A stretch of DNA of 33,204 nucleotides from Acetobacteraceae bacterium. Lineage in GTDB: Bacteria > Pseudomonadota > Alphaproteobacteria > Acetobacterales > Acetobacteraceae. The stretch is taken from the NCBI GenBank assembly GCA_030037665.1, contig JASHQG010000784.1:1-33204 (forward strand), given 5' to 3'. Below are positions 3,445 through 29,870 of this stretch, piece after piece. Below the pieces are notes generated by a model. It was not told the DNA's origin. It searched no databases and saw nothing but the letters and a program-made list of their open reading frames with translations. Position numbers and translations under genes: made by a program. The stretch's first letter is position 1. Each line of letters begins with the position of its first letter.

Positions 3445-4390
3445 CCGTCGTCTCCCGTGCACCGACGCCAGCGCGCAGGCCCAGCATCAGGCCGATGTTC
3501 TGCACCGCAGCGCCCGAAGCGCCCTTTCCCAGATTGTCCAGACGAGCGACCAGCACGGCCTGGCGCTGCTTCTCGTTGACGTGGACATAAAGTTCCAGGC
3601 TGTCGGTGTCGTTCAGCGCCTCCGCCTGCAGTTTGCCGTCTGGCTGGGGCGCGGCGACGCTGACAAGTTCGCACCCGACGTAATGCGCCTCCAGTACAGC
3701 GTGCAGATCGGCGCCGGTCGGGTGACCGGGTAGCGTGTCGAGGTGCAACGGCACCGACACCAGCATGCCTTGGCGGCAATGCGCGACTGAGGGAACGAAG
3801 ATCGGCCGCCGGGTCAGACGCGCATAGGCCTGCATCTCAGGCAGGTGCTTGTGCTCCAGTCCGAGCGCATAGAGTTCGAAGGCCGGGCCACCCTCCGTCT
3901 CGTGCGCCTGGATCATCGACTTGCCGCCACCAGAATAGCCGCTCACGGCGTTGACCGAGACCGGATAGTCACGCGGCACCAGGCCGGCGTCGACCAGCGG
4001 ACGGATCAGGCCAATCGCACCTGTGGGGTAACAGCCGGGGTTGGCGACCTTGTGCGCGGCTGCGATGAGCCCGGCCTGGCCGGGCACCATCTCCGGGAAG
4101 CCATAGACCCAGTCGGGGTTCACTCGATGCGCGGTGCTGGCGTCCAGCACCTTGGGCGCTGCGCTGCCCAGGCTTGCAGCCAAAGCGGCAGATTCCACGG
4201 CCGCATCGTCGGGCAGACACAGCACAACGAGGTCTACCTGTGCCATCATGTCCTTGCGCGCGGCCGGATCGCGGCGGTCCGCGTGCGGCAGGCTCTTCAC
4301 GATGACCCCAGGCACCGCCGCGAGCCGATCGCGGATGCCGAGACCTGTGGTTCCAGATTCACCGTCGATGAAGACGCTGGGCTTGGTCAT
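3437..4390 (-). CDS. argC: N-acetyl-gamma-glutamyl-phosphate reductase, type 2
   Basis: ArgC carries out the third step of arginine synthesis: NADPH-dependent reduction of N-acetyl-glutamyl-5-phosphate to the semialdehyde, in the cytoplasm. At 317 residues it matches the short type 2 ArgC family rather than the 340-plus-residue type 1. Characteristic features are the N-terminal nucleotide-binding start [12 protein letters not shown] and the catalytic C120 in [11 protein letters not shown]. The ribosome site GGGAGA lies about eight bases upstream of the ATG. The gene follows rpsI on the same strand after 121 bp and overlaps the downstream carbonic-anhydrase gene, so it may be read partly from the ribosomal-protein promoter. 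Other arg genes are not in the window. Confidence 0.95.
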
Positions 4391-4470
4391 CTGGCTTCTC
4401 CCGGTCGATCACACGCCGCTCCGCCTTGACGAAGGGGGGAGGGGTCCGCGTGCCGCGCCTCGGTGCCACC

Positions 4471-4506
4471 GGTCCCCTGCCCGCCCTCCCGCAGCGGCCG
4501 GGGACC
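4471..4506 (-). terminator. Candidate hairpin between rpsI and argC
   Basis: A perfect seven-base inverted repeat (GGTCCCC at 4471-4477, GGGGACC at 4500-4506) lies six bases after the rpsI stop. The 22-base loop is long and no T-tract follows, so it may attenuate rather than stop transcription into argC. Confidence 0.3.
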
Positions 4507-4511
4507 GTCGC

Positions 4512-5033
4512 CTATCGCTTGCTGAACTGGAAGCTGCGACGGGCCTTAACCTTGCCGTACTTCTTGCGCTCGACCACGCGGGAATCTCGGGTGAGGAACC
4601 CCGCGACCTTCAATATGCCGCGCAGATCCGGTTCATAGTGCGAAAGTGCACGGCTGATCCCATGCCGCACCGCGCCGGCCTGGCCCGAAAGTCCGCCCCC
4701 ATCCACCGTGCAATACACGTCGAACTGGTTGTAACGGTCCGCCACCAGGAATGGCTGGGTGATCAGCATGCGCAGCACGGGGCGGGCAAAATATTGCGCT
4801 GCTTGCTTGCCGTTGATGCTGATTTCGCCCCGGCCGGGCTTGATCCAGACCCGCGCCACCGCGTCCTTGCGCCGCCCGGTGGCATAGGAACGACCGAGCG
4901 CATCGCGCTTCGGCTCGCGCCTGGGTTGCTCCACCAACGCCGGCCCATCGGGTGCCTGGGCGGGCGCCTGCGTCTGCTGTGCGGCCAGCATGTCCTTGAG
5001 ATCGGCGAGACTACGTCCCTGGGTTCCCGACAT
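4512..5033 (-). CDS. rpsI: 30S ribosomal protein S9
   Basis: S9 sits in the head of the small ribosomal subunit, and its basic C-terminal tail reaches the P-site tRNA. The conserved core starts at about residue 46 ([15 protein letters not shown]), contains the glycine-rich [15 protein letters not shown] and ends in the canonical RRSFQFSKR tail. The protein has 173 residues, with about 45 residues of extra N-terminus rich in Gln, Ala and Pro. Alphaproteobacterial S9 proteins often carry an extension, but this one is on the long side. The ATG at 5033 lies four bases after the rplM stop and has GAGG upstream; an in-frame start inside rplM (5102) is rejected as it would overlap by 65 bases. It is co-transcribed with rplM. 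Confidence 0.96.
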
Positions 5034-5037
5034 CGGA

Positions 5038-5505
5038 TCAGCCTCGCTTGTTCTTCGGATTGAGGGCGACGACGTCCAGCTTCGTTGGCTGCTGGCCGTC
5101 ATGCGGGTGTTCGTTGCCCGCGTAGATATAGAGATGCTTCATCTGTCGACGCTGTAACGGCCCACGCGTGATCATCCGTTCCACCGCCTTTTCCAGTACC
5201 TGTTCAGGGCGCTTGCTCGCCAGACGCTGGCGGATGGAGCGACCTTTGATGCCACCGGGGTAACCCGTGTGATAGTAAAAGATCGACTGATCCGCCTTGT
5301 TGCCGGTGATGCGCACCTTAGCAGCGTTCACCACCACGATATTGTCGCCGCAATCAACGTGCGGAGTGAACTGTGCTTTGTGCTTGCCGCGAAGGCGGTT
5401 GGCGATGATGACGGCAAGGCGGCCGAGAACGACGCCGTCCGCGTCGATCAGCACCCAGTCCTTCTTGACCTCCGCGGGCTTCAGCGAGGCTGTGGTCTTG
5501 AGCAT
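5038..5505 (-). CDS. rplM: 50S ribosomal protein L13
   Basis: L13 is an early-assembling protein of the large ribosomal subunit. The 155-residue length is usual. Hallmarks include [15 protein letters not shown], the [16 protein letters not shown] segment, the [11 protein letters not shown] segment and the [11 protein letters not shown] region near the C-terminus. The start follows a GGATCCTCTCCC leader with no perfect ribosome site. It is the first gene of the conserved rplM-rpsI pair, and a plausible sigma-70 promoter and an AT-rich palindrome lie just upstream. Confidence 0.97.
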
Positions 5506-9669: not shown

Positions 9670-11115
9670 ATGCCCCAAGGTCCCAGCTTCCTGCCCGCAA
9701 CAGAGCTCGCCACCCGCATCCGGGCACGCGACATTGGCTGCCTGGAACTGCTCGACCATTACATCGCACGGATCGAACGTCTCGATCCGCACATCAATGC
9801 CGTCGTCGTACGGGACTTCGACCGTGCGCGAGTCCGTGCCCGCCAACTCGACAATCAGTCCGACCGCAAGGCGCCGTTGTTCGGCGTTCCGATGACCATC
9901 AAGGAAAGCTTCGATGTCGAGGGCCTGCCCACCACCTGGGGCGCACCGGCCTTGCGGACCTCAAAAGCCACGCGCAATGCCCTCGCGGTCGATCGCATGC
10001 TGAACGCCGGCGTGGTGTTGTTTGGCAAGACTAACGTTCCACTGATGCTCGCCGACTGGCAGAGCTACAACGATATCTACGGCACCACCAACAATCCTTG
10101 GGATATTGCCCTATCACCTGGTGGTTCGTCCGGTGGTTCGGCTGCGGCTCTCGCTGCGGGGCTCACCGGCATCGAAGCCGGCAGCGATATTGGTTCGTCG
10201 ATACGGAATCCCGCACACTTCTGTGGCGTATACGGCCACAAGCCTACCTGGGGCATTTGCCCGCCACTGGGGCAGGCACTGCACAACAACGTGGCGCAGG
10301 CGGACATTTCGGTGATCGGTCCCCTCGCCCGCTCGGCCGACGACCTTCTGGTCGCGCTCGACGTCATGGCCGGTGCAGAAGACGTCGAAGCCGGCTGGAA
10401 GCTTGATCTGCCGCCGCCGCGCGCGACCACGTTGAAGAAGATGCGTGTTGCCGTCATGACCGAGCACAAGCTCTCGGAAGTCGATCAGTCGATCGTCAAT
10501 AAACTGACTGAGCTCGCTGACTTCCTGCGCCGTGAAGGGGCGACGGTCAGCATGACGGCACGACCGGATTTCGATCTGGTGCACGGTCATCATTTGTATA
10601 TCGAGCTCCTGCGTGCCACGACCAGCGCTCGCTTCGATGACGCGGCAATGCAGCACTGGCACGCCGAGGCCGAGCGGTTGCCGCGCGATGACACCAGCTA
10701 TTACGCACTGATGGCGCGCGGCAACAGCATGACGCACCGCGACTTCCTGATCCGCAACGAGATTCGCCAGCGTATGCGCCGCGCCTGGGCTGCGTTCTTT
10801 CGCCACTACGACGTGTTCCTGTGCCCGGTCGCTGCCAGCGCGGCGCAACCACATAACCAGATCGGCGAACGATGGGAACGGCATATCACCGTCAACGGCC
10901 ATCGGGTGCTGGCGACGGATTCGATGTTCTGGTCCGGCATTTCGTGCTTCTACCTGTTGCCTGCCACGGCGGCACCACTGGGGTTTTCGTCGGACGGACT
11001 GCCGATCGGGGTGCAGATCGTCGGCGCGCAATACGCCGACCGCACCACGATCCAATTCGCGAAGCTCTTGGAAACCGCGTGGCAGGGTTTCGTACCGCCG
11101 CCCGGCTGGGAGTGA
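9670..11115 (+). CDS. Amidase signature family enzyme
   Basis: This 481-residue cytoplasmic amidase has the Ser-cisSer-Lys triad. K78 lies in PMTIKES, the cis-serine is S153 in the glycine/serine loop PGGSSGGSAAA, and the nucleophile S177 lies in GSDIGSSIRNPAHFCG. The family hydrolyses carboxamide bonds of small molecules, peptides or fatty amides; substrate is not predictable here. The start at 9670 follows GGGAGTG; the open frame continues upstream to 9397 without a start signal. Four bases separate its stop from the following SDR-like gene, so these two are surely co-transcribed and translationally close. A GatA role is unlikely because gatB and gatC are absent and family-specific segments differ. 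Confidence 0.93.
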   Translation: MPQGPSFLPATELATRIRARDIGCLELLDHYIARIERLDPHINAVVVRDFDRARVRARQLDNQSDRKAPLFGVPMTIKESFDVEGLPTTWGAPALRTSKATRNALAVDRMLNAGVVLFGKTNVPLMLADWQSYNDIYGTTNNPWDIALSPGGSSGGSAAALAAGLTGIEAGSDIGSSIRNPAHFCGVYGHKPTWGICPPLGQALHNNVAQADISVIGPLARSADDLLVALDVMAGAEDVEAGWKLDLPPPRATTLKKMRVAVMTEHKLSEVDQSIVNKLTELADFLRREGATVSMTARPDFDLVHGHHLYIELLRATTSARFDDAAMQHWHAEAERLPRDDTSYYALMARGNSMTHRDFLIRNEIRQRMRRAWAAFFRHYDVFLCPVAASAAQPHNQIGERWERHITVNGHRVLATDSMFWSGISCFYLLPATAAPLGFSSDGLPIGVQIVGAQYADRTTIQFAKLLETAWQGFVPPPGWE

Positions 11116-11119
11116 AACA

Positions 11120-11902
11120 ATGGACCTCAATCTGCACGGCAAGACCGCATTGATCACCGGCGCATCGAAGGGCATCGGCCGTTCCGCAGCGGAAGTCCTG
11201 GCCGAGGAAGGCGTCAACGTCGTCCTGGTGTCACGCACTCAGGCTGATCTGGATGCGGCGCAGAGCGCCATTTCCGCTCGTCACAACGTGCGTGTTGAGG
11301 TGCACGCGTACGACATAGCCGACAGTCGAAACGTCGACCGGCTCGCGGCACAGCATCCCGACATCGACATCCTGGTGAATAACGCGGGCGCCATCCCCGC
11401 CGGCAATCTGTGGGACGTGACAGAGGATCGCTGGCGTGCCGCCTGGGACCTGAAGGTGTACGGCTACATCAACATGTGCCGCCGCTTTTATGCCGAGATG
11501 AAGCAGCTTGGTCGCGGGGTGATCATCAACATTCTCGGTATGGCTGGCGAGCGCATGGACGCCGGTTACGTCGCAGGCTCCACCGGCAATGCGGGTCTGA
11601 TGGCGTTCACCAGGACGATTGGCGGCGCGGCGTCGGCTGACAACCTGCGCGTTGTCGGCATCAATCCGGGCGCGATCGCGACCGACCGGCTGGTGACAAT
11701 CATGAAGAAACGCGCGCTGGACCGGCTCGGCGACGAGACCCGCTGGGAGGAACTCATGAAACCGCTGCCGTTCGGCCGCGCTGGCACGCCCCAAGAGATC
11801 GGGTGGATGGTTGCATTCCTCGCGTCCGACAAGTCGGCCTATACCAGCGGCACGATCATCACCATCGACGGCGGCGCGGCAAACCGGGGGCCGATGTTCT
11901 GA
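11120..11902 (+). CDS. Second SDR-fold protein lacking the canonical Tyr/Lys active site
   Basis: The 260-residue protein has an intact nucleotide-binding motif (TGASKGIGRS, residues 13-22), the NNAG motif (NNAGAIPAG) and the C-terminal IDGGAA. The YxxxK position reads GSTGN (within AGSTGNAGLMAF), so both the Tyr and Lys are missing and the upstream catalytic serine is also not evident. It may bind NAD(P) without classical SDR chemistry, or use another mechanism. It is a homologue of the protein encoded at 8590, sharing its length, MDLxLxGK start and FGRAGTP/TGRAGDP region, but is clearly divergent. The start lies four bases after the amidase stop. Confidence 0.9.
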   Translation: MDLNLHGKTALITGASKGIGRSAAEVLAEEGVNVVLVSRTQADLDAAQSAISARHNVRVEVHAYDIADSRNVDRLAAQHPDIDILVNNAGAIPAGNLWDVTEDRWRAAWDLKVYGYINMCRRFYAEMKQLGRGVIINILGMAGERMDAGYVAGSTGNAGLMAFTRTIGGAASADNLRVVGINPGAIATDRLVTIMKKRALDRLGDETRWEELMKPLPFGRAGTPQEIGWMVAFLASDKSAYTSGTIITIDGGAANRGPMF

Positions 11903-12046: not shown

Positions 12047-13225
12047 TCAAGCAATTACCTGCCCTGCCCGCAACGCGGCAATCTCTGCCGAGGAATATCC
12101 GTGCTCCGCCAGGATCGCGTTAGTGTGCTGTCCGAGCGCCGGTGCGACGCTGCGCGCATCGCCGTCCACAAACGGCGGCAATCCCACCAAATTCGGCAAC
12201 GGCATCTCCTGCGGCACATGCGGATGCTGTAGCCACGCCACTGCGCCGCTCTCCTCGACGTGCTTCTGGCGGAGGAATTCCGTATAGGTGTTCAGTTGCT
12301 CATGCATCACGCGTTGAGCGGCCAGCCGTTCCGACAGCAACGCCGTCGGGTGCGACACCAACAGCGGTTGGATGACCGCGTTGATCTCCGTGGCATGTGC
12401 CTTGCGTCCCTCGATTGTCTGCAGCAAGGGGTCGGCCTCGAACATGGGAAGATCCAGCGCACGGCAGTAGCCCTGCCATTCGAACGGCCGCACGACGGTG
12501 ACCGACAGCCAGCCATCCGCCGTCCTGTGCACACCGTTCGGCGGCACGACCGGTGTGGTGATGCCTCCTTCCAGATAGGACGACATGAGACGCACCACCT
12601 GCAATGATGCGGCGCCTTGCATCAGGCTCGATTCGATGTGCCGGCCGCGTGCTTCTTCGCGCCGCGCATGCAGCGCTGCGGCAACAGCGGTAAAGGTGTA
12701 GAGTGCGGTGCTCATGTCGATCGAGATGATTGGAATGCGATGCGGAATGCCGTCCTCGCCCGTGTTCTCTGCCATGAGGCCGGTATACGCCTGCAGCACC
12801 GGATCCATCGCCGGACGCTCGGATAACGGGCCGGTCTGCCCAAAGCCCGACACTGACACGTACAGAATTCGCGGCTCGCGCGCGGATACGTCGGTGTATC
12901 CGAAGCCCAGGCGCTCGATCACGCCAGGTCGGAACCCTTGCAGGAATACGTCCGCCCCTTCGACCAGCCGCCACAGCACCATGCGACCGGCATCCTGCTT
13001 CAAGTCCAATGTGATCGACCGTTTCCCAACATTGGACGGGATCGAATACGCCGTATTGTCGCCGTAGCGCACGCCCAAAGAGCGCGCCCAGTCGCCGCTT
13101 TCCGGCGGCTCCACCTTGATGACATTCGCGCCGTACTGCGCCAGCAGCATCGCGCAATAGGGTCCGGCAACGCCCTGGCTGAGATCAATCACCTTCAGAC
13201 CGGCGTACGGTGTCTCATAGCTCAC
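12047..13225 (-). CDS. Family III CoA-transferase (CaiB/BaiF)
   Basis: The 392-residue enzyme belongs to the family that moves CoA between carboxylic acids through an aspartyl-CoA thioester. Visible features are the N-terminal GLKVIDLSQGVAGPYCAMLL, VIKVEPPxxGD, the SNVGKRSITLDLK segment, and the probable catalytic D141 in RPAMDPVLQAYTG. The GTG at 13225 is taken as start because GGGAAGGGA precedes it; an upstream ATG at 13282 adds 19 residues of low-complexity sequence. It is divergent from the small monooxygenase gene at 13312. Given the mesaconyl-CoA hydratase-like gene nearby, a dicarboxyl-CoA substrate is possible but inferred. Confidence 0.92.
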   Translation of the reverse strand: MSYETPYAGLKVIDLSQGVAGPYCAMLLAQYGANVIKVEPPESGDWARSLGVRYGDNTAYSIPSNVGKRSITLDLKQDAGRMVLWRLVEGADVFLQGFRPGVIERLGFGYTDVSAREPRILYVSVSGFGQTGPLSERPAMDPVLQAYTGLMAENTGEDGIPHRIPIISIDMSTALYTFTAVAAALHARREEARGRHIESSLMQGAASLQVVRLMSSYLEGGITTPVVPPNGVHRTADGWLSVTVVRPFEWQGYCRALDLPMFEADPLLQTIEGRKAHATEINAVIQPLLVSHPTALLSERLAAQRVMHEQLNTYTEFLRQKHVEESGAVAWLQHPHVPQEMPLPNLVGLPPFVDGDARSVAPALGQHTNAILAEHGYSSAEIAALRAGQVIA

Positions 13226-13311
13226 GGTTTCGTCCCTTCCCTTGTTGCCGCGTGGCCGCGGCGCAGGCAAGCTTGCGGACATCTGCCCCGATCGAACAAG
13301 AGGAGACGACC

Positions 13312-13614
13312 ATGATCCACGTGTTGGCCATCATCACCACAAAGCCTGGCATGCGTGAGCAGGTCCTGGAGGCGTTCCGCGCCAACATGCCCGCGGTCCA
13401 TGCCGAGGCCGGCTGCATCGAATACGGCCCGGTGATCGATGCCGAGTTCCCCGGCGCAAAGTTCGGGGCCGACACGTTCGTGGTGGTGGAAAAGTGGGAA
13501 AGCCCGGATCACTTGAAGGCCCATGCCGCGTCTCCGCACATGGCCGCCTACGCCGCCAAGACGCGCGATCTGCTGGTAAACCGCGAAATCCACGTGATGC
13601 AACCGGCAGCGTAA
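13312..13614 (+). CDS. ABM-domain protein, putative quinol monooxygenase (YgiN-like)
   Basis: This 100-residue single-domain ferredoxin-like-fold protein matches the antibiotic biosynthesis monooxygenase family. It has the start MIHVLAIITTKPG, the AGCIEYG turn, the FVVVEKWESPDHLKAH segment and a terminal His/Met-containing strand. Members form dimers and oxidise quinols or other aromatic compounds without a metal or flavin, though many are uncharacterised. AGAGGAGA lies seven bases upstream of the ATG. A strong hairpin follows the stop, so it is probably transcribed alone. Confidence 0.88.
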   Translation: MIHVLAIITTKPGMREQVLEAFRANMPAVHAEAGCIEYGPVIDAEFPGAKFGADTFVVVEKWESPDHLKAHAASPHMAAYAAKTRDLLVNREIHVMQPAA

Positions 13615-13637
13615 CACCGCCAAGTGCATCACGGCCC

Positions 13638-13680
13638 GACCATCGCCCCGGGGCGCCAGTCCCGGGGCGTTTGGTGGTCG
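13638..13680 (+). terminator. Rho-independent-type terminator after the ABM gene
   Basis: A perfect nine-base GC stem (13644-13652 with 13661-13669, eight-base loop) is extended by an outer CGACCA/TGGTCG pairing (13638-13643 with 13675-13680). Three T residues follow the inner stem. It starts 24 bases past the stop codon. Confidence 0.65.
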
Positions 13681-13717
13681 CCCGCGGTCTCGCTTCACTG
13701 GGAAAGACGGACGGAGC

Positions 13718-14575
13718 ATGCCTGACATCGACATCGAACCCCTGCGCGCGCAGCTCGGTCGCACTGTGGTCGACGAGGACGTGGCGACGGAAGCACCGCT
13801 GCGCGGCATGGCTGCCACGTTCGACCGCGACGAGCCACCGCCGGGCATCGGCGAACCGGTTCCGCCGGGCTGGCATCTCGCGTATTTCCCCGATGCCCCG
13901 AAGCGACGCGAACTCGCCGAAGACGGCCTGCCGACCGGCCGCGGCGTGCTGCCAAAAATGCCTCTGCCTCGTCGCATGTATGCCGGCGCAACATTGACGT
14001 TCCACGCGCCGATTTTGGTCGGCGATAAATTGCGACGGGAGACCGAATTCTCCGACGTGCAGGTTCGTCAGGGCAGCACCGGGACGCTGATCCTGGCGAC
14101 GCAGACACGGCGCATCTACACGCCACGTGGCCTCGCGCTGACCGACGCTCAGCACGGCGTGTTTCGGGAAGCTGTGCCGCCGGGTGCGCAATCCGGCATT
14201 CCGCGCCGCGACTTGCCACCGGCCGATCTGCCGTGGCGGCGCGTCTGGGCGCCGGATTCGGTCACCCTGTTCCGGTATTCGGCGCTCACATTCAATCCGC
14301 ATCGCATCCATTACGACCGACCGTATGCAATGGCGGTGGAGGGATATCCGGGGCTCGTTGTGCACGGGCCGTTCTCGCAGCAATGCCTGCTCGACCTGCT
14401 GCGGGATTGCGTTCACCGGACGATCGTACGATTCGATATGCGGGCCCGCGCGCCATTGTTCGATACGGCGCCGTTCAGCGTCGTGGGACGACCGGTTGGA
14501 GAGGATAGAGCGGAGCTCTGGGCGGTCACGCCGGACGGCACGATCGCCATGCAGGTAAATGCGGTGTTGCAATGA
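13718..14575 (+). CDS. MaoC/FAS1-type double hot-dog dehydratase, mesaconyl-C4-CoA hydratase-like
   Basis: The 285-residue protein has two hot-dog halves. The N-terminal FAS1-like dehydratase half is about residues 10-145. The C-terminal half carries FRYSALTFNPHRIHYDRPYA and the following PGLVVHGP, the active-site pattern of the MaoC/HTD2 group. The closest functional class I recognise is mesaconyl-C4-CoA hydratase (Meh), which turns mesaconyl-C4-CoA into citramalyl-CoA. Other 3-hydroxyacyl (thio)ester dehydratase roles remain possible. GGACGGAGC precedes the ATG. It is convergent with the acyl-CoA dehydrogenase gene. Confidence 0.88.
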   Translation: MPDIDIEPLRAQLGRTVVDEDVATEAPLRGMAATFDRDEPPPGIGEPVPPGWHLAYFPDAPKRRELAEDGLPTGRGVLPKMPLPRRMYAGATLTFHAPILVGDKLRRETEFSDVQVRQGSTGTLILATQTRRIYTPRGLALTDAQHGVFREAVPPGAQSGIPRRDLPPADLPWRRVWAPDSVTLFRYSALTFNPHRIHYDRPYAMAVEGYPGLVVHGPFSQQCLLDLLRDCVHRTIVRFDMRARAPLFDTAPFSVVGRPVGEDRAELWAVTPDGTIAMQVNAVLQ

Positions 14576-14623
14576 AACCTCGCACACGACTCACGAGAGA
14601 CCGAGGGGCGGAGCATCGAGGGT

Positions 14624-14647
14624 GAGCGTGCAGCGTCACGCACGCTC
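14624..14647. terminator. Hairpin between convergent hydratase and acyl-CoA dehydrogenase genes
   Basis: GAGCGTGC (14624-14631) pairs perfectly with GCACGCTC (14640-14647), loop of eight. Outer bases GGGTGA and TCACCC can add to the structure. Its position between two convergent genes suits a bidirectional terminator; neither side has a T-tract. Confidence 0.5.
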
Positions 14648-14650
14648 GCG

Positions 14651-14701
14651 CCTCACCCGCTACGCTGACGCGTCGCCACCTCTCCCGCTTCGCGGGCGAG
14701 G
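14651..14701. repeat. Palindromic repeat-like element overlapping the acyl-CoA dehydrogenase 3' end
   Basis: CCTCTCCCGC (14679-14688) and GCGGGCGAGG (14692-14701) form a ten-base stem with one wobble and a TTC loop. A CCTCACCC block (14651-14658) containing the stop codon sits next to it. Related blocks occur in this window at 20402-20412, 28411-28420 and 29841-29866, always at intergenic ends. This suggests a degenerate dispersed extragenic palindrome family. Confidence 0.45.
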
Positions 14702-15684
14702 TTTTGCTGCCTCGCCATTCGTGGCCCTCGCGCAATCGACAGAGTCGCATCCACATCGGCGAGGATCTGTTCAATCGCAGCATGGTCGCGCGATCCGAAC
14801 TCCGTCAGGTGCGCCCGCGCGCGCGTCGTCCACTCCGCCGCCAGAAGACGCAAACCCACGAGCGTGGCTGACTGTCCGATCGTGTGGCCACTGTCCAGCG
14901 CTTGGACAACGGCGTCGGCTGCGTCCTCGAACACGGCAGCCAATCCGGTCAATCCTCCCGCTGATAACGCCGCGGCGTCCGACCGAGCGCCGATCCGTCT
15001 GAGCAGAAAGCGAAACGCTCCGAGCAGAGCGAACATCCCCACCGCATCCTCGACATCGCGAAACGGCCGAGCCATCCGTTCGTACGCGCTATCCGCCTCG
15101 CCAAGGATTGCCCCCTGGGGCACCCACACGCCGTTCAACGTCAGCCCGCAATGCCGCGACGGGCGCAGCGCATGGTATGCCGCCATCTCGGTCAACGTCG
15201 CACCCGGCGCATCCCGCGGTACGATGAACGCGGTGTAACGTTTCCGCGCGTCGTCCACAGACGTGATCGCCAGCAGGATGAATGCCTCGGCCAAAGGTGC
15301 GTTGCTCACCCACGCTTTCTCACCGTTGATGCGGAATCCGCTGCCATCCGGCTCTGCGCGGGTCGCCAGATGCTTCGGATGCGCACCGACCGTTGGTTCC
15401 GAAATCGCGACCGACAGAGCGCGCCCCCGCCAAGCCGCGCGCTGCACGTCATTGCCGAAGGCATCGATGAAGAACCGGCTGATCAATTGCCGTCCGCCCC
15501 AGATGCCGGCGATGCCGAGCAATCCTGTCCGCGCCACCAGCGCTGCCTTCATCCTCGCGATGGACAGATAATCGGATAGCGGCCTCAACAGTTCCGCTTC
15601 CGCCATTCCCGGCAGCGGGTCATTCGCCGGATCCGGGCAGCGTTGCAACCACGCATCGACCCGTCGCGTGATGTCGTCGTCCAT
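14653..15684 (-). CDS. Acyl-CoA dehydrogenase family protein, divergent and short
   Basis: The 343-residue flavoprotein is recognised by its middle-domain segment ALSVAISEPTVGAHP, followed by the GFRINGEKAWVSNAP pattern. This is the FAD and acyl-CoA binding region that is highly conserved in acyl-CoA dehydrogenases. It is shorter than the usual 380-400 residues, and I cannot place the catalytic glutamate with confidence. The last residues (about NLAREAGEVATRQRSG) are encoded by a palindromic repeat-like sequence and may be acquired. The ATG at 15684 is preferred over 15714 by sequence start (MDDDITRR), although neither has a good ribosome site. It diverges from the luciferase-like gene. The substrate is unknown. 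Confidence 0.8.
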   Translation of the reverse strand: MDDDITRRVDAWLQRCPDPANDPLPGMAEAELLRPLSDYLSIARMKAALVARTGLLGIAGIWGGRQLISRFFIDAFGNDVQRAAWRGRALSVAISEPTVGAHPKHLATRAEPDGSGFRINGEKAWVSNAPLAEAFILLAITSVDDARKRYTAFIVPRDAPGATLTEMAAYHALRPSRHCGLTLNGVWVPQGAILGEADSAYERMARPFRDVEDAVGMFALLGAFRFLLRRIGARSDAAALSAGGLTGLAAVFEDAADAVVQALDSGHTIGQSATLVGLRLLAAEWTTRARAHLTEFGSRDHAAIEQILADVDATLSIARGPRMARQQNLAREAGEVATRQRSG

Positions 15685-15787
15685 CCCGTGACCATGGGAT
15701 CCCGACCGCGGCATGGCAACCGCAGCGGGTCTGGGTTAGCCTTCGGCGCGCCCCACCGCGGGCAAAGGAAACGCAGGAGGATCGGCC

Positions 15788-16894
15788 ATGCTGCTCGGCT
15801 ATTTCGCGATGCCCTCGCATCCGCCGGAGAGAGGCCTGAAAGAAGGCCACGACTGGGACCTGCAGACGCTGCGCTGGCTTGACGAGCTAGGCTACGACGA
15901 AGCCTGGATCGGCGAGCACTACACCGCTCCGTGGGAGCCCCACCCCTCGCCCGATCTCCTGATCGCGCAGGCGCTGCTCCAGACGAAGCGCTTGCGCATC
16001 GGCCCGGGCGGATTCCTGCTGCCGTATCATCACCCCGCCGAACTCGCCGCACGCGTCGCGATGCTCGACCACCTCTCGGAGGGCCGCCTCAACTTCGGCG
16101 TCGCCGCGTCTGGCCTGCCAACCGATTGGGCGATGTTCAACGTCGATGGCAACGCTGGCGTGAACCGCGACATGACGCGTGAATCGCTCGATATGATTCT
16201 GCGCTTGTGGAGCGACGAATCTCCCTTCACCCAGCAGGGCAAATTCTGGACCGTATCGAAGCCCGAACCGATGTTCGGCTTCCTTCACTCCCACATCAAG
16301 CCACTGCAGAAACCGCATCCGCCGATTGGCGTCGCCGGATTCTCGAAGCAGTCGGACACGTTGAAGCTCGCGGGCGAGCGCGGTTTTCTGCCGATGTCGC
16401 TCAATCTCAACCCTGCTTATGTGGCGAGCCACTGGGAAGCGGTGGAAATCGGCGCCGCGCGTGCCGGCCGAACGCCGAAACGCAGCGACTGGCGTCTCGT
16501 GCGCGAGGTGTTTGTCGCCGATACCGATGAGGAAGCATGGAAGCTGTGCGTCGAAGGCATGATGGGCCGGATGATGCGTGAATACTTCCTGCCTCTGCTC
16601 GGGAATTTTGGGTTCCTCGAATTTCTCAAGCATGATCCTGCCGTGGCGGACAGCGACGTGACGCCGGAATACTGCGCGCGGCAAAACTGGCTGGTTGGAT
16701 CGCCGTCGACCGTCGCAGAAAAGTTGGAGCGCATCTACCACGAAGCCGGCGGCTTCGGCGGTCTGCTGGTGTTTGGCTTCGATTACCTGGAGAACCCACA
16801 GGCCTGGTTCCGCTCCCTGAAGTTGTTCAAGGAGGAGGTCGCACCACGCGTCGCGCATCTCTCACCGGACAGCAGAAAGGCTGCGGCGGAGTAG
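15788..16894 (+). CDS. Luciferase-like (LLM class) flavin-dependent monooxygenase
   Basis: The 368-residue TIM-barrel flavoprotein belongs to the bacterial-luciferase superfamily. Diagnostic segments are ELGYDEAWIGEHYTAPWEP, the RLRIGPGGFLLPYHHP strand and LDHLSEGRLNFGVAASGLP. It resembles limonene-monooxygenase-like members that use reduced FMN and O2 to oxidise small hydrophobic molecules; a separate flavin reductase is needed and none is seen here. GCAGGAGGATC gives an excellent ribosome site. The gene starts 103 bp from the divergent acyl-CoA dehydrogenase gene and ends at a strong hairpin. Confidence 0.92.
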   Translation: MLLGYFAMPSHPPERGLKEGHDWDLQTLRWLDELGYDEAWIGEHYTAPWEPHPSPDLLIAQALLQTKRLRIGPGGFLLPYHHPAELAARVAMLDHLSEGRLNFGVAASGLPTDWAMFNVDGNAGVNRDMTRESLDMILRLWSDESPFTQQGKFWTVSKPEPMFGFLHSHIKPLQKPHPPIGVAGFSKQSDTLKLAGERGFLPMSLNLNPAYVASHWEAVEIGAARAGRTPKRSDWRLVREVFVADTDEEAWKLCVEGMMGRMMREYFLPLLGNFGFLEFLKHDPAVADSDVTPEYCARQNWLVGSPSTVAEKLERIYHEAGGFGGLLVFGFDYLENPQAWFRSLKLFKEEVAPRVAHLSPDSRKAAAE

Positions 16895-24326: not shown

Positions 24327-24353
24327 GCATTGCCGCTGTTCCTGCGGCAATGC
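24327..24353 (+). terminator. Hairpin after the DsbA-like gene
   Basis: GCATTGCCGC (24327-24336) pairs perfectly with GCGGCAATGC (24344-24353) around a seven-base loop, 13 bases past the stop codon. No T-tract follows. Confidence 0.65.
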
Positions 24354-24541
24354 CTCCAAACCCTGGCCAGCCGACCAGTGAGACTGATCAAACCGCGCTG
24401 GTCGGTGATTGGGGCCCGGTCGACTGGGCAGCAACGCTGCGAAGGCTTGAGCCCATTCGCCGACCGGCGCAGTGTGCACCGGTTGCGCCGTTGCCTCAGG
24501 CTGTGGATCGACGGCGCTCATCCGGGGAGCGAAGTCCTGCA

Positions 24542-25435
24542 ATGACGTTGTCCATCTGCCCGATCGATCCGGTGTCCCGTCCGTTTTTCGCCGGCGTTGC
24601 GTCCGGACTGGATATCACGCAGCCGCTGACGCGCGAGCAGGCAGTCGAGATCGAGAAGGGCATGGACCAGTTCGGCGTGCTGGTGTTTCACAATCAGCGC
24701 TTCACCGACGAAACGCAGATGGCGTTCTCGCGCAATTTTGGCGAGCTGGAAGTGGCGACGACGCACACTGTGCGCGACACCGAGAAAACCCGACTGGGAA
24801 CCCATATAAACGATATTTCCAACCTGGACAGTGACAGCAACGTTCTGGCGCGCGACGACCGGCGTCGCTTGTTCAGCCTGGGCACGCGCCTCTGGCACTC
24901 GGACAGCTCGTTCAAGGACGTCCCGGCAAAATATTCGTTGCTGTCGGCACGGATCGTTCCCTCCAAGGGCGGCAACACCGAATTCGCCGATATGCGCACA
25001 TCGTACGATGCTCTGGATGACGAGACCAAGGCGGAGTGCGAGAACCTCGTGTGCGAGCACAGCCAGTTGTTCTCGCGCGAGCAAATCGGGTTCAGCAATT
25101 TCACCGATGACGAGCGCCGTCGCTTCGCGCCTGTGAAGCAGCGGCTTGTGCGCCGGCATCCATCGACTGGTCGCAAGTCCCTGTTCCTCGCATCGCATGC
25201 CGGAACGATTGTCGGCTGGCCGGTTCCGGAGGCACGGATGTTCCTGCGCGAACTGACAGAGCATGCAACGCAACGGCGATTCGTGTACGCGCATGAATGG
25301 CAGGTGTTCGATCTGGTGATATGGGACAATCGCGCGACCATGCACCGCGGGCGGCGATATGATCCGACCGAGGCGCGGGACATGCATCGCACCACAGTCG
25401 GAGGCACACGCTCAACGATGGCGGAGGCCGCATAG
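24542..25435 (+). CDS. TauD/TfdA-family Fe(II)/2-oxoglutarate-dependent dioxygenase
   Basis: The 297-residue enzyme uses 2-oxoglutarate, O2 and Fe(II) to hydroxylate a small organic substrate. The facial triad is H119-x-D121 (LWHSDSSFK) and H268 (TMHRGRRYD), with the 2-oxoglutarate-binding R283 in ARDMHRTTVGG. Sequence style matches the TfdA (2,4-D)/TauD (taurine)/alpha-ketoglutarate sulfonate group, but the true substrate is unknown. The ATG at 24542 has GGGGAGC about 12 bases upstream; the open frame continues back to 24350 without signals. The nearest neighbours are unrelated, so no operon partner helps with the substrate. Confidence 0.92.
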   Translation: MTLSICPIDPVSRPFFAGVASGLDITQPLTREQAVEIEKGMDQFGVLVFHNQRFTDETQMAFSRNFGELEVATTHTVRDTEKTRLGTHINDISNLDSDSNVLARDDRRRLFSLGTRLWHSDSSFKDVPAKYSLLSARIVPSKGGNTEFADMRTSYDALDDETKAECENLVCEHSQLFSREQIGFSNFTDDERRRFAPVKQRLVRRHPSTGRKSLFLASHAGTIVGWPVPEARMFLRELTEHATQRRFVYAHEWQVFDLVIWDNRATMHRGRRYDPTEARDMHRTTVGGTRSTMAEAA

Positions 25436-25695
25436 CGGCGCCCTTGCCGTGCGCTGCGGCGACCACGCGGAACCCTCCACCCGGCCGTATCGCGAGACCG
25501 TCAGCCCAATCCAGTTGTGATGGCTGGGGCAGGCCTTGTTCGTTGGCAAGCCCTGTCAGCCATTCCCAGTCGTGGCAATTGCGCGCGGCGAGCCACTGCT
25601 GCATTCTGTGAGGCTTCCGACTGCGCTGCGCGGTCGGGAGCGAGGAGCCAATGGCTGAGATAACGAACGTTAGCTACACAAACAGGGAGCCGCCA
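25436..25695. other. 260-bp region before the substrate-binding protein
   Basis: Minus-strand frame 25604-25436 encodes a protein-like stretch (LAARNCHDWEWLTGLANEQ and on) but runs on antisense into the TauD gene without stopping until 25101, so it is not called. No other feature is supported. Confidence 0.35.
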
Positions 25696-26916
25696 ATGAC
25701 GATCTTCACGCGCCGCACGATCCTTGCCGCCCTGCCCAGCGCGCTTGCCCTTGCCACGGTGCCTGCCCGTGCCGCCAGGACGTATGGACCGGGCGTCTCT
25801 GACACAGAGATCAAGATCGGCAACACCGGGCCTTATAGCGGTCCGCTGTCGAACGCCAGTCCGATCCCACTGTCGATGCAAGCCTATTTCAAGATGATCA
25901 ATGCCCAGGGCGGCGTGAACGGGCGCAAGATCAATTGGATCTCGTACGACGATAGCTACTCACCGCCGAAGACGGTCGAGATGACACGCAGGCTGGTCGA
26001 AGAGGATCACGTCCTGTTCGTGGCCGGTCCCGTCGGAACCCCGACGAACAGCGCGGTCTGGCACTACCTGAACGAAAAGAAGGTACCGCAGCTGTTTCCC
26101 GCAACCGGCGCTACGAAGTGGAACGACCCAAAGGGCCATCCGTGGACCATGGCCTTTTTTATCAGCTACCAGGCCGAGGGGCGCATCTATGCCGCGTACA
26201 TCCTGAAGAACAAGCCTGATGCGAAAATCGGTGTGCTCTATCAAAACGACGATTTCGGCAAAGACTATTTGAAGGGTGTGGTCGACGGGCTCGGCGCGAA
26301 GGCCGCGACGATGATCAAGGCCAAGGCAAGCTACGAGAGCACGGACGCGACGGTCGACTCGCAGATTGTCGCTTTACAATCAGCAGGCTGTGATGTCCTC
26401 ATCACGGTCGCCATTCCCAAGTTTGGCGCTCAGGCGGTCAAGAAGGTCGCGGAGATAGACTGGCACCCGCTGCACATCCTCAACGGCATCGCCTCGTCCG
26501 TTGGAGCGACCCTGAAGCCAGCTGGTCTGGCAAACGCAAAGGGGATCATCAGCGACAGCTCTTTCAAGGATCCCACCGATCCTGAATGGCGCAACGACGC
26601 CGGCTACAAGCAGTGGCTCTCGTTCATGGACAAGTATTATCCGAATGGCGACAAAACAGATAACCAGACCGTCTACGGTTACTCGATGGCCGAGACGACG
26701 GTGCAGGTGCTGAAGCAGTGCGGGGACAACCTGACGAGGGAGAACGTCATGAAGCAGGCAGCCAACCTGCATCTTCCATTGCCGATGTTGCTACCCGGCA
26801 TCGTGATCGACACCAGTCCCACCAATTTCGCGCCGATTCACCAAGCCCAAATGCGGCGCTTCAACGGCGAGCGGTACGTTCCATTCGGTCCGATCCTTTC
26901 GGGTGTGACTGCCTGA
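25696..26916 (+). CDS. ABC-type branched-chain amino acid/aromatic-type substrate-binding protein (LivK-like)
   Basis: The 406-residue secreted binding protein has an N-terminal signal peptide (residues 1-26) containing RRTILAAL, which could be a twin-arginine signal, and likely cleavage after PARA. The mature part is the periplasmic-binding-protein type 1 fold: SDTEIKIGNTGPYSGPLS start, the GGVNGRKINWISYDDSYSPPKTVEMTRRLVE segment and FVAGPVGTPTNSAV. Ligands in this family include branched-chain amino acids, amides, urea and aromatic acids. GGGAG precedes the ATG. No permease or ATPase genes are adjacent, so it is an orphan that must pair with a transporter encoded elsewhere. Confidence 0.93.
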   Translation: MTIFTRRTILAALPSALALATVPARAARTYGPGVSDTEIKIGNTGPYSGPLSNASPIPLSMQAYFKMINAQGGVNGRKINWISYDDSYSPPKTVEMTRRLVEEDHVLFVAGPVGTPTNSAVWHYLNEKKVPQLFPATGATKWNDPKGHPWTMAFFISYQAEGRIYAAYILKNKPDAKIGVLYQNDDFGKDYLKGVVDGLGAKAATMIKAKASYESTDATVDSQIVALQSAGCDVLITVAIPKFGAQAVKKVAEIDWHPLHILNGIASSVGATLKPAGLANAKGIISDSSFKDPTDPEWRNDAGYKQWLSFMDKYYPNGDKTDNQTVYGYSMAETTVQVLKQCGDNLTRENVMKQAANLHLPLPMLLPGIVIDTSPTNFAPIHQAQMRRFNGERYVPFGPILSGVTA

Positions 26917-27044: not shown

Positions 27045-27872
27045 ATGCCGATCATCGACGTTCAGGTCCACCCGTTCGATCGCGATCATTCCGGCCGTCC
27101 GTGGGCCGGACCCTCGCATGGACTGAAATCCGCGACCGGCGATGAAATGGTCGCGGCGATGAACGCGGTCGGCGTCGATGCCGCGATCATGGTGTCGTCA
27201 TTCAGCGCCTATCGCTACGACCCAAGTTATGCGCTGGAGGTCTACCGCAAATACCCCGACAGATTCCGCGTCGTCACACCGGTTGATGCGACCGATCCCA
27301 CGATCGACGACGTGGTGGCGCGCTGGGCCGCGACCGAGGGGGCGCGCGGCATCCGCATCATCCTGCGCGAAGGGATGCCGATGGAGCCGGACCATCCCGG
27401 CCTGTCGCGCACGCTCAACGCCGCGGCGCGACACGGACTGCCGGTCAATCTCCTCTGCTGGGGCATGCTGGATAAGGGTGCGGCGATCATGCGCAGGTTC
27501 GCCGACACGGTGATCGTTGTCGATCATCTCGGCCTGTTACAGCCCATGCGTCCGCCGGTTCCCGCCACTGTCTGGGCCGAACTGCCGACATTGGTCGCGC
27601 TGGCGCAGTATCCGAATGTTCGGGTGAAGGTCAGCGGCGCCTGCACCATGTCCCACCAGCCGTTCCCGTATGACGACATCTGGGACAATGTGCTGCGCGT
27701 GATCGACGGGTTCGGACTGGATCGCTGCATGTGGGGCACGGATTGGACGCGCACGATTCAGATGCTGACCTATGAGCAGGGTGTCGTGCCGTTCCGCGAC
27801 AGCACGCGCCTGTCGGCAGCTGACAAGGCGATGCTGATGGGGGGAACGCTGCAGCAGGTCTACAGGTGGTAG
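27045..27872 (+). CDS. Amidohydrolase-2 family metal-dependent hydrolase
   Basis: The 275-residue TIM-barrel protein is of the amidohydrolase-related family that includes ACMSD, gamma-resorcylate decarboxylase and 2-pyrone-4,6-dicarboxylate lactonase. Putative metal-site segments are IIDVQVHPF (D5, H9), VVDHLGLLQ and WGTDWTR near residue 230. Reaction is therefore decarboxylation or hydrolysis of an aromatic or lactone substrate, not assigned. AACCGGAGGAACG is a strong ribosome site. A short inverted repeat (26985-26990 with 27009-27014) lies upstream. A VOC gene follows after 66 bp and is probably co-transcribed. Confidence 0.9.
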   Translation: MPIIDVQVHPFDRDHSGRPWAGPSHGLKSATGDEMVAAMNAVGVDAAIMVSSFSAYRYDPSYALEVYRKYPDRFRVVTPVDATDPTIDDVVARWAATEGARGIRIILREGMPMEPDHPGLSRTLNAAARHGLPVNLLCWGMLDKGAAIMRRFADTVIVVDHLGLLQPMRPPVPATVWAELPTLVALAQYPNVRVKVSGACTMSHQPFPYDDIWDNVLRVIDGFGLDRCMWGTDWTRTIQMLTYEQGVVPFRDSTRLSAADKAMLMGGTLQQVYRW

Positions 27873-27938
27873 CGGCACCTCTTTTCGTGACGCTCAAATC
27901 GTGTACTCTCATGTGATCCCCAACGGGAGGAAAACCGA

Positions 27939-28325
27939 ATGTTCAGCCATATCATGGTCGGCAGTAACGATATCGCCCGCTCGAAGGCGTTTTATGACGC
28001 CGTGTTCGGTGCAATGGGCGCCAAGCCCGGCGTGGAGGACGCCAAGGGCCGGTTGATCTACTCGCATAATGGCAGCCTCTTCATGGTGAGCAAGCCGATC
28101 GACGGCAAGGCTGCCACACACGCCAATGGCGGCACGATCGGCTTCGTTATGGCGAGTCCAGATCAAGCCGACGCGTGGCACAAGGCCGGTGTTGCCCACG
28201 GCGGCAAGTCGATCGAGGACGCGCCAGGCATTCGCCAGGGCGGTCCAGTGCCGATGTATCTCGCGTACCTGCGCGATCCCGACGGCAACAAGCTCTGCGG
28301 ATTTGCGCGCCTTCAGACCGGGTGA
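27939..28325 (+). CDS. VOC-superfamily (glyoxalase-like) protein
   Basis: The 128-residue protein has the VOC pattern: MFSHIMVGSNDIARSKAFYDAVF at the start and LAYLRDPDGNKLCGF at the end. The usual C-terminal metal ligand Glu is Cys or absent and only H4 is clearly placed, so it may not bind metal in the common way. GGGAGGAAAA lies upstream of the ATG. It follows an amidohydrolase gene on the same strand and could act on the same compound, but this is inference. Confidence 0.87.
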   Translation: MFSHIMVGSNDIARSKAFYDAVFGAMGAKPGVEDAKGRLIYSHNGSLFMVSKPIDGKAATHANGGTIGFVMASPDQADAWHKAGVAHGGKSIEDAPGIRQGGPVPMYLAYLRDPDGNKLCGFARLQTG

Positions 28326-28465
28326 AGCGCTGACAAAGCCGCTCGCGCCGGAGCGGTCGAGCTGCGAGGCAGCGTGGGCGAGAGACGAAACACGCGATCC
28401 GTGGGTTCGACCTCTCCCCGCGGCATTCTATGTCGCAACATCACCCACACGGGGAGACGTGGTTC

Positions 28466-28864
28466 CTATCGCGGCCAATCCAGCCGCGGCTCCCGCCGCG
28501 CCGGGCGCGTGGTGGATGGCGGGGCGTCGAGCGGTGTGTGCTCGTCCAGTTCGTGCGGCGCGGGCGGGATTGGTGGTCGGGCGCTCGTCACCGCCCGCTG
28601 CCCCGGAGGCGGTTCGTGGCGCGCCGGTTCGTAGACGTCGTGGTAGTCAATCGGCGGTCCGGGCTCCGGCATGCGTAGCGACAAATGCCGGATTTCGTGC
28701 TGGATTTCGTCGAGCCGCGCCTCCAGCACATCCAACCTGCCTTTAACGCCAATGACGCTGAATGGCATGAACAAAAATGCAAGCGCGTAGAGCAGCGCCG
28801 GCACCACCACCAGCAGTAGCCCCCACCAGGGAAGCCAGTCCGGTACAGGGAAAGGCAGGGTCAT
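28466..28864 (-). CDS. Small single-pass membrane protein with coiled coil, unknown function
   Basis: The 132-residue product begins MTLPFPVPDWLPWWG, then has one strongly hydrophobic helix (about residues 13-40, LLLVVVPALLYALAFLFMPF). A probable coiled coil follows (VKGRLDVLEARLDEIQHEIRHL, about 42-65), and the tail is proline- and arginine-rich and probably disordered. I recall similar unnamed proteins in Acetobacteraceae, but no function is known. The ATG at 28864 is chosen because the sequence pattern begins there; a GTG at 28873 adds three residues. No clear ribosome site is seen. The gene is convergent with the VOC gene. Confidence 0.68.
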   Translation of the reverse strand: MTLPFPVPDWLPWWGLLLVVVPALLYALAFLFMPFSVIGVKGRLDVLEARLDEIQHEIRHLSLRMPEPGPPIDYHDVYEPARHEPPPGQRAVTSARPPIPPAPHELDEHTPLDAPPSTTRPARREPRLDWPR

Positions 28865-28927
28865 GCCGCGCACGCTAACACAACCGAGGCGGGGCGTCGC
28901 GTGCTATGTCCGGGAGCAGCGGCGACG

Positions 28928-29704
28928 TTACCCGAACGCGTAGGCGTCCATGCGCAGAGCGCTGTAGGTCGTGCTGGCGTGTAGGCGCGTTGCCGCGGCG
29001 TTTTCGCCGCCGGCACCAAAGGCCACGAACAGAGGCAGCAGATGCTCCTCGGTCGGGTGCTGCAGGGCGGCGTAGGGCGCCCGGCGGCGATAGGCCAGCA
29101 GCTCGTCGGTGCGGTGCTGCACCAAAGCGTCGTGCATCCAGTTGGAGAAGGCGGCAACATCGGCCGGGGGCGACGTGTCCGGCGCACCGCGGCGCAGACG
29201 GCTCAGATTGTGTGTGAAGGACCCGGAGCCGATCACCAGCACGTCCTCGGCACGCAGCCGGGAGATTGCCTGACCGAGCTTGTGGTGATGCGCGGGGCCA
29301 AGCCGGGATTGCAACGACAGCTGCAGCACGGGGACGTCGTGCGCCGGATACATCAGCGTCAACGGCACCCAGGCGCCATGATCGAGGCCGCGGTCGCGGT
29401 CGAGCTCGGCAGCGAGACCGGCCTCATTCAGCAGCGTCGCCACGCGGCCAGCCAGTTCCGGGGCACCCGGGGCGGGATACCGCGTCGCGTGCAGCGCCGG
29501 CGGAAAACCGTAGAAATCGTGGATCGTCTTGTTGACCGCGACGGCGTTGAGTTCGGGGCGCGCGGTTTCCCAATGCGCCGAGGCGACCAGGATCGCGTCG
29601 GGACGCCCGAGAGCCTCGCCGAGCTGGGACAGGAAGTCGCGGGCCGGGGATGGTTCGAGCGCCATCATCGGCGAGCCATGGCTGAGGAAGAGAGTGGGAA
29701 GCAT
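28928..29704 (-). CDS. DODA-type extradiol ring-cleavage dioxygenase (YgiD-like, LigB superfamily)
   Basis: The 258-residue protein has the LigB/DODA fold signature. H9 lies in FLSHGSPMM, H44 in ASAHWE, H108 in LDHGAWVPL, with later GSGSFTHN (H164) and LQHPTEEHLLPL (H215, H220). H9, H44 and one of the later His residues probably hold the Fe or Zn. E. coli YgiD cleaves L-DOPA; the natural substrate here is unknown. The ATG at 29704 is preceded by GAGGTTAGGTACCCCCC, without a classical ribosome site. It lies 166 bp downstream of the tandem amidohydrolase genes and could be co-transcribed with them. Confidence 0.9.
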   Translation of the reverse strand: MLPTLFLSHGSPMMALEPSPARDFLSQLGEALGRPDAILVASAHWETARPELNAVAVNKTIHDFYGFPPALHATRYPAPGAPELAGRVATLLNEAGLAAELDRDRGLDHGAWVPLTLMYPAHDVPVLQLSLQSRLGPAHHHKLGQAISRLRAEDVLVIGSGSFTHNLSRLRRGAPDTSPPADVAAFSNWMHDALVQHRTDELLAYRRRAPYAALQHPTEEHLLPLFVAFGAGGENAAATRLHASTTYSALRMDAYAFG

Positions 29705-29840
29705 GGGGGGTACCTAACCTCTCGTTTCTCTGCGTGCGGGCGAGACATTCCACTGGGCGTCAGTCCGCGGGTCGAAAGGAGCCGCGTCGAGGGGCGACGT
29801 GGTGCGGTTCCGCCGGTCGCCCTTCACCGGACGTGTCGCG

Positions 29841-29866
29841 CCGCCCGCTTCCGCAGGCGGGAGCGG
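29841..29866 (-). terminator. Hairpin after the 29871-30974 amidohydrolase gene
   Basis: CCCGC (29844-29848) and GCGGG (29857-29861) form an inner stem, with outer CCG/CGG pairings, just past the stop codon at 29871. It resembles the GC-rich palindromic blocks elsewhere in the window. Evidence is moderate. Confidence 0.4.
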
Positions 29867-29870
29867 TGTC

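Follow-up and report, generated by a model that had tools for sequence, protein, structure and literature searches.

We analyzed a 33,204-nucleotide stretch of an Acetobacteraceae genome (hereafter the window; contig JASHQG010000784.1, or C618, of a 6.46-Mb, 803-contig metagenome-assembled genome that is 96.7% complete with 6.3% contamination), which carries within 3.6 kb the genes for a family III CoA-transferase, a double hot-dog hydratase and a protein related to acyl-CoA dehydrogenases (ACAD). An earlier note on this DNA had proposed that the three genes form a short cluster for the degradation of C4/C5 dicarboxyl-CoA. Our analyses do not support a C4/C5-dicarboxylate reading of the trio. 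The hydratase is probably an enoyl-CoA hydratase of an uncharacterized alphaproteobacterial clade that serves a peripheral beta-oxidation route, not an itaconate cluster. The locus itself is best explained as an ordinary catabolic neighborhood, in which the hydratase gene lies beside a divergent pair for the CoA-transferase and a small antibiotic biosynthesis monooxygenase (ABM)-domain protein and another for the ACAD-like protein and a luciferase-like (LLM class) flavin monooxygenase. On its own, the combination of a family III CoA-transferase, a hydratase like itaconyl-CoA hydratase (Ich) or mesaconyl-C4-CoA hydratase (Meh) and an ACAD does not indicate the metabolism of itaconate or mesaconate, because at least three clades of family III transferases (the window type, itaconate CoA-transferase, Ict, and mesaconyl-CoA C1-C4 CoA-transferase, Mct) adjoin hydratases of this fold.

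Four of the genes were confirmed from their open reading frames (ORFs) and Pfam matches (the Pfam scan covered 30 of the 142 window ORFs of at least 90 aa), in the families and at the positions given before. The CoA-transferase of the Frc/CaiB type (411 aa; 12047-13282, minus strand; PF02515 CoA_transf_3, 326.8 bits) is followed on the plus strand by the 100-aa ABM-domain protein, which has the antibiotic biosynthesis monooxygenase fold (13312-13614; PF03992, 60.3 bits), and by the double hot-dog enoyl-CoA hydratase of the Ich/Meh/HTD2-like type (13718-14575; PF13452 FAS1_DH_region, 31.9 bits). The divergent ACAD-like protein (353-aa ORF; 14653-15714, minus strand; PF02770, 63.3 bits) is transcribed away from the LLM monooxygenase gene (15788-16894, plus strand; PF00296, 155.7 bits). 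The strands alternate between the two divergent pairs (CoA-transferase/ABM-hydratase and ACAD/LLM monooxygenase), and therefore the genes do not make up one operon. With 51 PF02515 matches (some of them fragments) and 28 PF02770 matches in the 6.46-Mb genome, rough arithmetic gives a chance of about 0.2% that random scatter would place one CoA-transferase and one ACAD gene within 3.6 kb of the only such hydratase. This is weak evidence of function, because catabolic genes cluster anyway.

The hydratase has the full Ich-type double hot-dog fold and an Asn-His dyad. By sequence, its closest match in the PDB is the itaconyl-CoA hydratase of Pseudomonas aeruginosa (8khg; phmmer, E 9.4e-46). The AlphaFold model (predicted local distance difference test score, pLDDT, 91.3) retrieved the same structure as the top Foldseek match (E 1.7e-30; TM-score 0.84-0.88; 36-37% identity), in agreement with the earlier description of the protein as Meh-like. 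Furthermore, Asn193 and His198 are invariant in all 15 aligned relatives. We placed the protein in a tree of 100 hydratases, built from an alignment that left aside three short rows (two of L114 and L116) and a copy of the window (L001); also omitted were L002 (same genome as L031), 16 loci thinned from a Reyranella-like group and L072. The window protein fell in a 33-row clade (support of 100 by the SH-like approximate likelihood ratio test, SH-aLRT; stem 0.73), separate from the proteins of the same kind in four clusters of the itaconate type (P. aeruginosa, L127; Marinobacter, L129; Eleftheria, L130; Variovorax, L131) and from the hydratase that adjoins an above-cut-off Mct (L120). The itaconate labels of L129-L131 and the Meh label of L120 were assigned by gene order and annotation. 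A tree in which the window protein alone was joined to these five hydratases was rejected by the approximately unbiased (AU) test (p 1.9e-46). The closest named relatives carry the titles Acetobacteraceae, Rhodospirillales or Alphaproteobacteria, and the named matches include Acidisphaera sp. S103 and Reyranella species.

The residues of the clade point in the same direction. Comparing 49 clade rows with 5 Ich/Meh rows and 60 other rows of the family, we identified ten positions at which 90% or more of the clade rows agree on a residue that differs from the majority of the Ich/Meh proteins. One of them, Pro194, adjoins the catalytic-type Asn193 and is replaced by Gly in four of the five Ich/Meh rows. 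In all five of the latter, Leu71 is His, Phe149 is Tyr and the pair Gln222-Cys223 is Thr-Leu. These changes could reflect an altered substrate; several of the ten positions are also near-fixed in the 60 other rows. If the clade does have a substrate of its own, annotating its members as mesaconyl-C4-CoA hydratases would be wrong.

The CoA-transferase is a genuine member of family III (Frc), with PF02515 spanning residues 27-387 and a catalytic-type Asp189 that aligns with Asp165 of Mct. The alignment has a gap at the column of Mct Leu43; according to published work, a Leu or Ile at this position narrows the active site and marks the intramolecular transferases (PMC9813914). No NCBIfam model matched the protein above its cut-off, and the Mct model (TIGR04253) gave 38.9 bits against a cut-off of 725. 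In a tree of 72 transferases, the window protein and its orthologs formed a 16-row clade (SH-aLRT 100), with Ict (15 rows, support 100) and Mct (16 rows, support 100, stem 2.9) in clades of their own. Matches shorter than about 850 bases or interrupted by an in-frame stop were left out of this tree (hence the absence of L147), and two long single branches flagged by the program (L148_2702m and L080_15795m) were not used in the argument. The window protein is 27-31% identical to the four Ict proteins, as compared to the 65-72% that the P. aeruginosa Ict shares with the other three, and ranks only 24th of the 44 matches to P. aeruginosa Ict in its own genome. The separate, fully supported clades and the low identity set the transferase apart from Ict. 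Similarly, the score, the 22% identity to the above-cut-off Mct of L120, the lack of a Leu or Ile at position 43 and the placement in another clade exclude Mct. As to the start of the gene, a GTG codon at 13225 fits the amino terminus of the L084 ortholog better than the start of the 411-aa frame; the GTG-started frame reads VSYETPYAGLKV and the L084 ortholog MSYETPYAGLKV.

The ACAD-like protein is a divergent one. Of the amino-terminal, middle and carboxy-terminal domains of the family, Pfam detected only the middle one (PF02770), and a structural model built from two sequences was too poor for use (pLDDT 50.4). The end of the gene given in the earlier note (15684) is an internal ATG of the 353-aa ORF and is probably the right start, because the ortholog in L038 (62% identity) starts there. 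In addition to L038, orthologs are present in 9 of 146 related genomes (E <= 1e-20). Glu222, in the motif FRDxEDAxG, is invariant in all 11 rows of the family alignment, and Mcd likewise has a Glu in this column. We take this column to be the site where isovaleryl-CoA-type dehydrogenases carry their catalytic base. Yet the protein is only 27% identical over 119 residues to the Mcd of the itaconate clusters, as compared to the 76-82% between the P. aeruginosa Mcd and three others, which does not fit orthology to Mcd, the (RS)-methylsuccinyl-CoA dehydrogenase. Among the matches to Mcd in its own genome, it ranks 27th of 29. One relative (G051; L161) encodes an 86% copy of the short-chain dehydrogenase/reductase (SDR) of the window (11120-11902) at 10491-11270, about 5.4 kb away from the ACAD ortholog (4173-5057); the SDR and the ACAD may thus be linked.

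Better candidates for the itaconate enzymes are encoded elsewhere in the genome. Ict-like proteins reach 54% (C720) and 47% identity and Mcd-like proteins 65% (C577) and 60% (C776), and such genes are scattered over contigs C577, C776, C720 and C266. When the 5.6-15 kb around each of them was searched for relatives of Ich, Meh, Ccl, Mct and MmgE, no second cluster member emerged. The lyase that the earlier note had found missing is indeed absent from the locus, for none of the 13 matches to PF03328 (HpcH/HpaI, CitE-like) in the genome, which we searched for a citramalyl-CoA lyase, lies on the window contig. One CitE-like protein adjoins a CoA-transferase on C680 and is 37% identical to P. aeruginosa Ccl (PaCcl); the NCBIfam model RipC_Ccl cannot decide its identity, as its score for PaCcl is itself below cut-off (157.7 of 375 bits). 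With the transferase outside the Mct and Ict clades, an ACAD unlike Mcd and better Ict-like and Mcd-like proteins elsewhere, the proposed C4/C5 dicarboxyl-CoA pathway is not supported.

The neighborhoods of related hydratases also speak for a distinct context. We found 79 related loci, 46 of them (L031-L074, L083 and L084) in the hydratase clade of the window (59-76% identity), and read at most 10 kb to either side of the hydratase, often less where contigs were shorter. Within these limits, none of the 46 clade loci carried the window trio of transferase, hydratase and window-type ACAD. The transferase ortholog was near the hydratase in four of them (69-72%) and the ABM ortholog in six (71-76%), while the window-type ACAD and LLM genes were present in just one, L038, as the same divergent pair (62% and 76%). 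As a positive control, a transferase gene of the Ict clade abuts a same-strand hydratase gene of this family in two relatives (G002 and G018). The most frequent ACAD neighbor of the clade was a heteromeric pair, whose genes immediately precede that of the hydratase in the same orientation in 12 of the 46 loci (including L040, for which the hydratase position was taken from a separate neighborhood search). In genome G063, the pair is likewise upstream, at a distance of 1.6 kb. In the pair of L084, Pfam recognizes the three ACAD domains in the large protein but not the middle one in the small protein; their best NCBIfam models were PimC for the large one (231 of 624 bits) and IpdE2 for the small one (126 of 450 bits; PimD gave 99 of 653 bits), all far below cut-off. 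In L041 and L084, the transferase, ABM, ferredoxin, a small protein, the ACAD pair and the hydratase are encoded together, the ferredoxin and small protein having been scanned in L084 only. The small protein (6383-6958 of L084) has no Pfam match and looks like a candidate cupin of the thiol-dioxygenase type. The suggestion of a related but different route in the earlier note is thus supported in part: transferase clade, ACAD and hydratase do occur together in L041 and L084, but the ACAD there is a different, heteromeric one.

Other neighbors vary. In 24 of the 46 loci, a gene for a TauD-like dioxygenase precedes the hydratase gene; a major facilitator superfamily (MFS) transporter and an epoxide hydrolase are encoded in L064, and a phosphoenolpyruvate (PEP)-mutase-family protein and a ketopantoate-reductase-like protein in L067. 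The window also encodes a TauD/TfdA-family dioxygenase (24350-25435), about 10 kb from the hydratase and 44-51% identical to the TauD-like protein of the Reyranella-type loci. Further along, a periplasmic binding protein gene (25651-26916) precedes three genes of the amidohydrolase_2 family and one for an extradiol dioxygenase of the LigB type (27045-32047), which suggests an aromatic-acid module near the hydratase locus.

From these families, we can outline how such a peripheral route might work. A carboxylic acid would be activated with CoA by the family III transferase via Asp189, and a heteromeric PimC-like/IpdE2-like ACAD, the commonest ACAD partner in the relatives and encoded directly upstream of the hydratase, would make the double bond. 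Hydration of this bond, between C2 and C3 of the acyl-CoA, is most likely the role of the hydratase with its Asn193-His198 dyad, as inferred from its family. An order of activation, dehydrogenation and hydration is plausible, with a substrate that is probably not itaconate, mesaconate or methylsuccinate. More speculatively, the clade and its heteromeric ACAD pair, joined in some genomes by the divergent CoA-transferase/ABM pair, the ferredoxin and LLM monooxygenases, could constitute an undescribed alphaproteobacterial route for acid degradation, with the changes beside the catalytic Asn having adapted the Ich/Meh fold to a bulky or cyclic acyl-CoA. We regard this extended proposal as tentative and rather unlikely.

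Second in rank is the possibility that the window juxtaposes independent catabolic genes by chance, as two divergent pairs in a catabolism-rich genome that share no pathway. We consider this unlikely as well. The alternating strands and the many transferase and ACAD matches in the genome are what it predicts, but the CoA-transferase and ABM genes adjoin the hydratase as arranged in the window in two other loci (L034 and L037), and the gathering of the CoA-transferase, ABM, ferredoxin, ACAD pair and hydratase in L041 and L084 also speaks against it. The distribution of the families speaks on both sides. All nine relatives with an ACAD ortholog (G002, G014, G020, G026, G033, G051, G077, G078 and G089) belong to the ten genomes (of 146) that encode a transferase with 46% identity or more, and they fall among 37 genomes whose GyrB is at least 77% identical to that of the window genome (five by partial matches). 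Closeness alone does not, therefore, explain this co-occurrence, for which thresholds were picked after seeing the data and no correction was made for descent. In each genome, no more than 14 candidates for the ACAD and 12 for the transferase were scored, so that some proteins may have been missed. In each of the nine genomes, however, the two genes are on different contigs (7-20 kb around them were read), as expected from chance, and in three of them (G020, G033 and G089) the transferase groups with a second copy of the window genome on C700 rather than with that of the window.

Several observations weigh against assigning the hydratase to a peripheral route outside itaconate metabolism. The hydratases of the four itaconate-type clusters are scattered in the tree and do not form one group: those of P. 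aeruginosa and Marinobacter group together, and those of Variovorax and Eleftheria lie elsewhere, the Eleftheria protein in a weakly supported group with the clade of the window. The latter protein is 46% identical to the window hydratase and 47% to P. aeruginosa Ich. Ich function thus seems to occur across the family, so that membership in another clade argues only moderately against it. Moreover, a tree joining the whole clade to Ich and Meh was not rejected (AU p 0.131). Placement of the two proteins with other clades in family trees had been named beforehand as the outcome that would refute a dicarboxyl-CoA cluster; this was the outcome for the transferase and, given the AU result, only partly so for the hydratase, despite its separate clade. 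The window hydratase is also the only member of its family in the genome (E <= 0.001), which makes it the candidate should the organism degrade C5 dicarboxyl-CoA. The heteromeric ACAD pair is absent upstream of the hydratase in 34 of the 46 clade loci and from the window. A genome-wide search with its large member (the small one was not searched) retrieved no close copy, with 37% identity for the match best by score, on C343, and a partial match of 45% over about 210 residues on C439; C343 carries a paralogous ACAD pair (36% and 33%). Finally, the co-occurrence of ACAD and transferase in nine of nine relatives hints that these two proteins of the window work together.

Some of these points would also suit a diverged cluster of the itaconate/methylsuccinate type, in which the transferase would activate a C5 dicarboxylate, the ACAD would oxidize methylsuccinyl-CoA, the hydratase would make citramalyl-CoA and a lyase would be encoded elsewhere. 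The three enzyme classes are those of ich, mcd and ict in the pseudomonadal cluster, as excerpts of its description present it (PMC12290011), the hydratase is structurally closest to the P. aeruginosa Ich, and the CitE-like proteins, among them the one adjoining a CoA-transferase on C680, could supply the lyase. However, neither the transferase nor the ACAD is an ortholog of Ict or Mcd and the genome encodes better candidates for both. The alternating strands, the absence of the trio from the clade loci and the clade-specific changes beside the catalytic dyad are also contrary to it. We therefore consider such a cluster improbable.

A fragment of the 3-hydroxypropionate bi-cycle with Mct and Meh is hardly credible. 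In its favor, the window hydratase is 41% identical to the Meh-like one encoded directly upstream of the above-cut-off Mct of L120 (genome G236, C38; 841-3068), in a genome of the same class as that of the window and the only one of 289 class genomes to pass the TIGR04253 cut-off. Against it stand the score, the identity, the missing residue at position 43 and the tree placement of the window transferase, and the best Mct-like protein of its own genome (436 of 725 bits, with an Ile at the Leu43 position) is encoded on another contig (C722:4517-5704; L121:4499-5740), where an ACAD-like ORF precedes it and no Ich/Meh-family hydratase was found in the 6.1 kb available.

The reading of the hydratase as a member of a separate clade with a peripheral role can be set against the systems described to date. 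Ich (PA0878; PDB 8khg/8huc) and Meh share with it the full-length double hot-dog fold and the Asn-His dyad, within the motif TFNxHRIHYD. The window protein is 34-46% identical to the hydratases of the four itaconate-type clusters and differs from Ich and Meh by its long-stemmed clade, the ten changed positions (one beside the dyad) and its neighbors. The Mct comparison is alike in nature: the transferases share the family III framework and the catalytic Asp and differ in all the features by which Mct was excluded. The pseudomonadal itaconate/methylsuccinate cluster, as described (PMC12290011), consists of ich, an ACAD gene (mcd), mmgE, ict and ccl. This order is present in P. aeruginosa (L127) and, wholly or in part, in the other three records, the Eleftheria locus being without mmgE and the Variovorax one having its lyase gene on the opposite strand at a distance of a few genes. 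As in the window, genes for a CoA-transferase III, a hydratase and an ACAD are close together in these clusters, but the P. aeruginosa genes form a one-strand run with mmgE and ccl, whereas those of the window alternate strands, have no lyase gene on their contig and include a non-orthologous transferase and ACAD.

The ACAD pair upstream of the clade hydratase in 12 loci resembles other systems. We take PimCD, also from the names of the models, to be a pimelate enzyme. For steroid catabolism, one account describes sets of a heteromeric ACAD and a hydratase (Scd1AB-Shy1 and ScdC1C2-ScdD, the ACADs being proposed); such a succession is suggested there to act on the side chains of bile acids and at a later stage in the breakdown of the steroid rings (PMC6678751). 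The family scores of the pair are far below the cut-offs, the window does not carry it, and the likeness of Shy1 and ScdD to the clade hydratase is one of description only. A further precedent comes from Cupriavidus necator, whose second Ich homolog is reported to adjoin a CoA-transferase gene and a gene of the adenylosuccinate lyase family and is assigned to a different pathway (PMC12290011). Thus, by-forms of Ich are already recognized.

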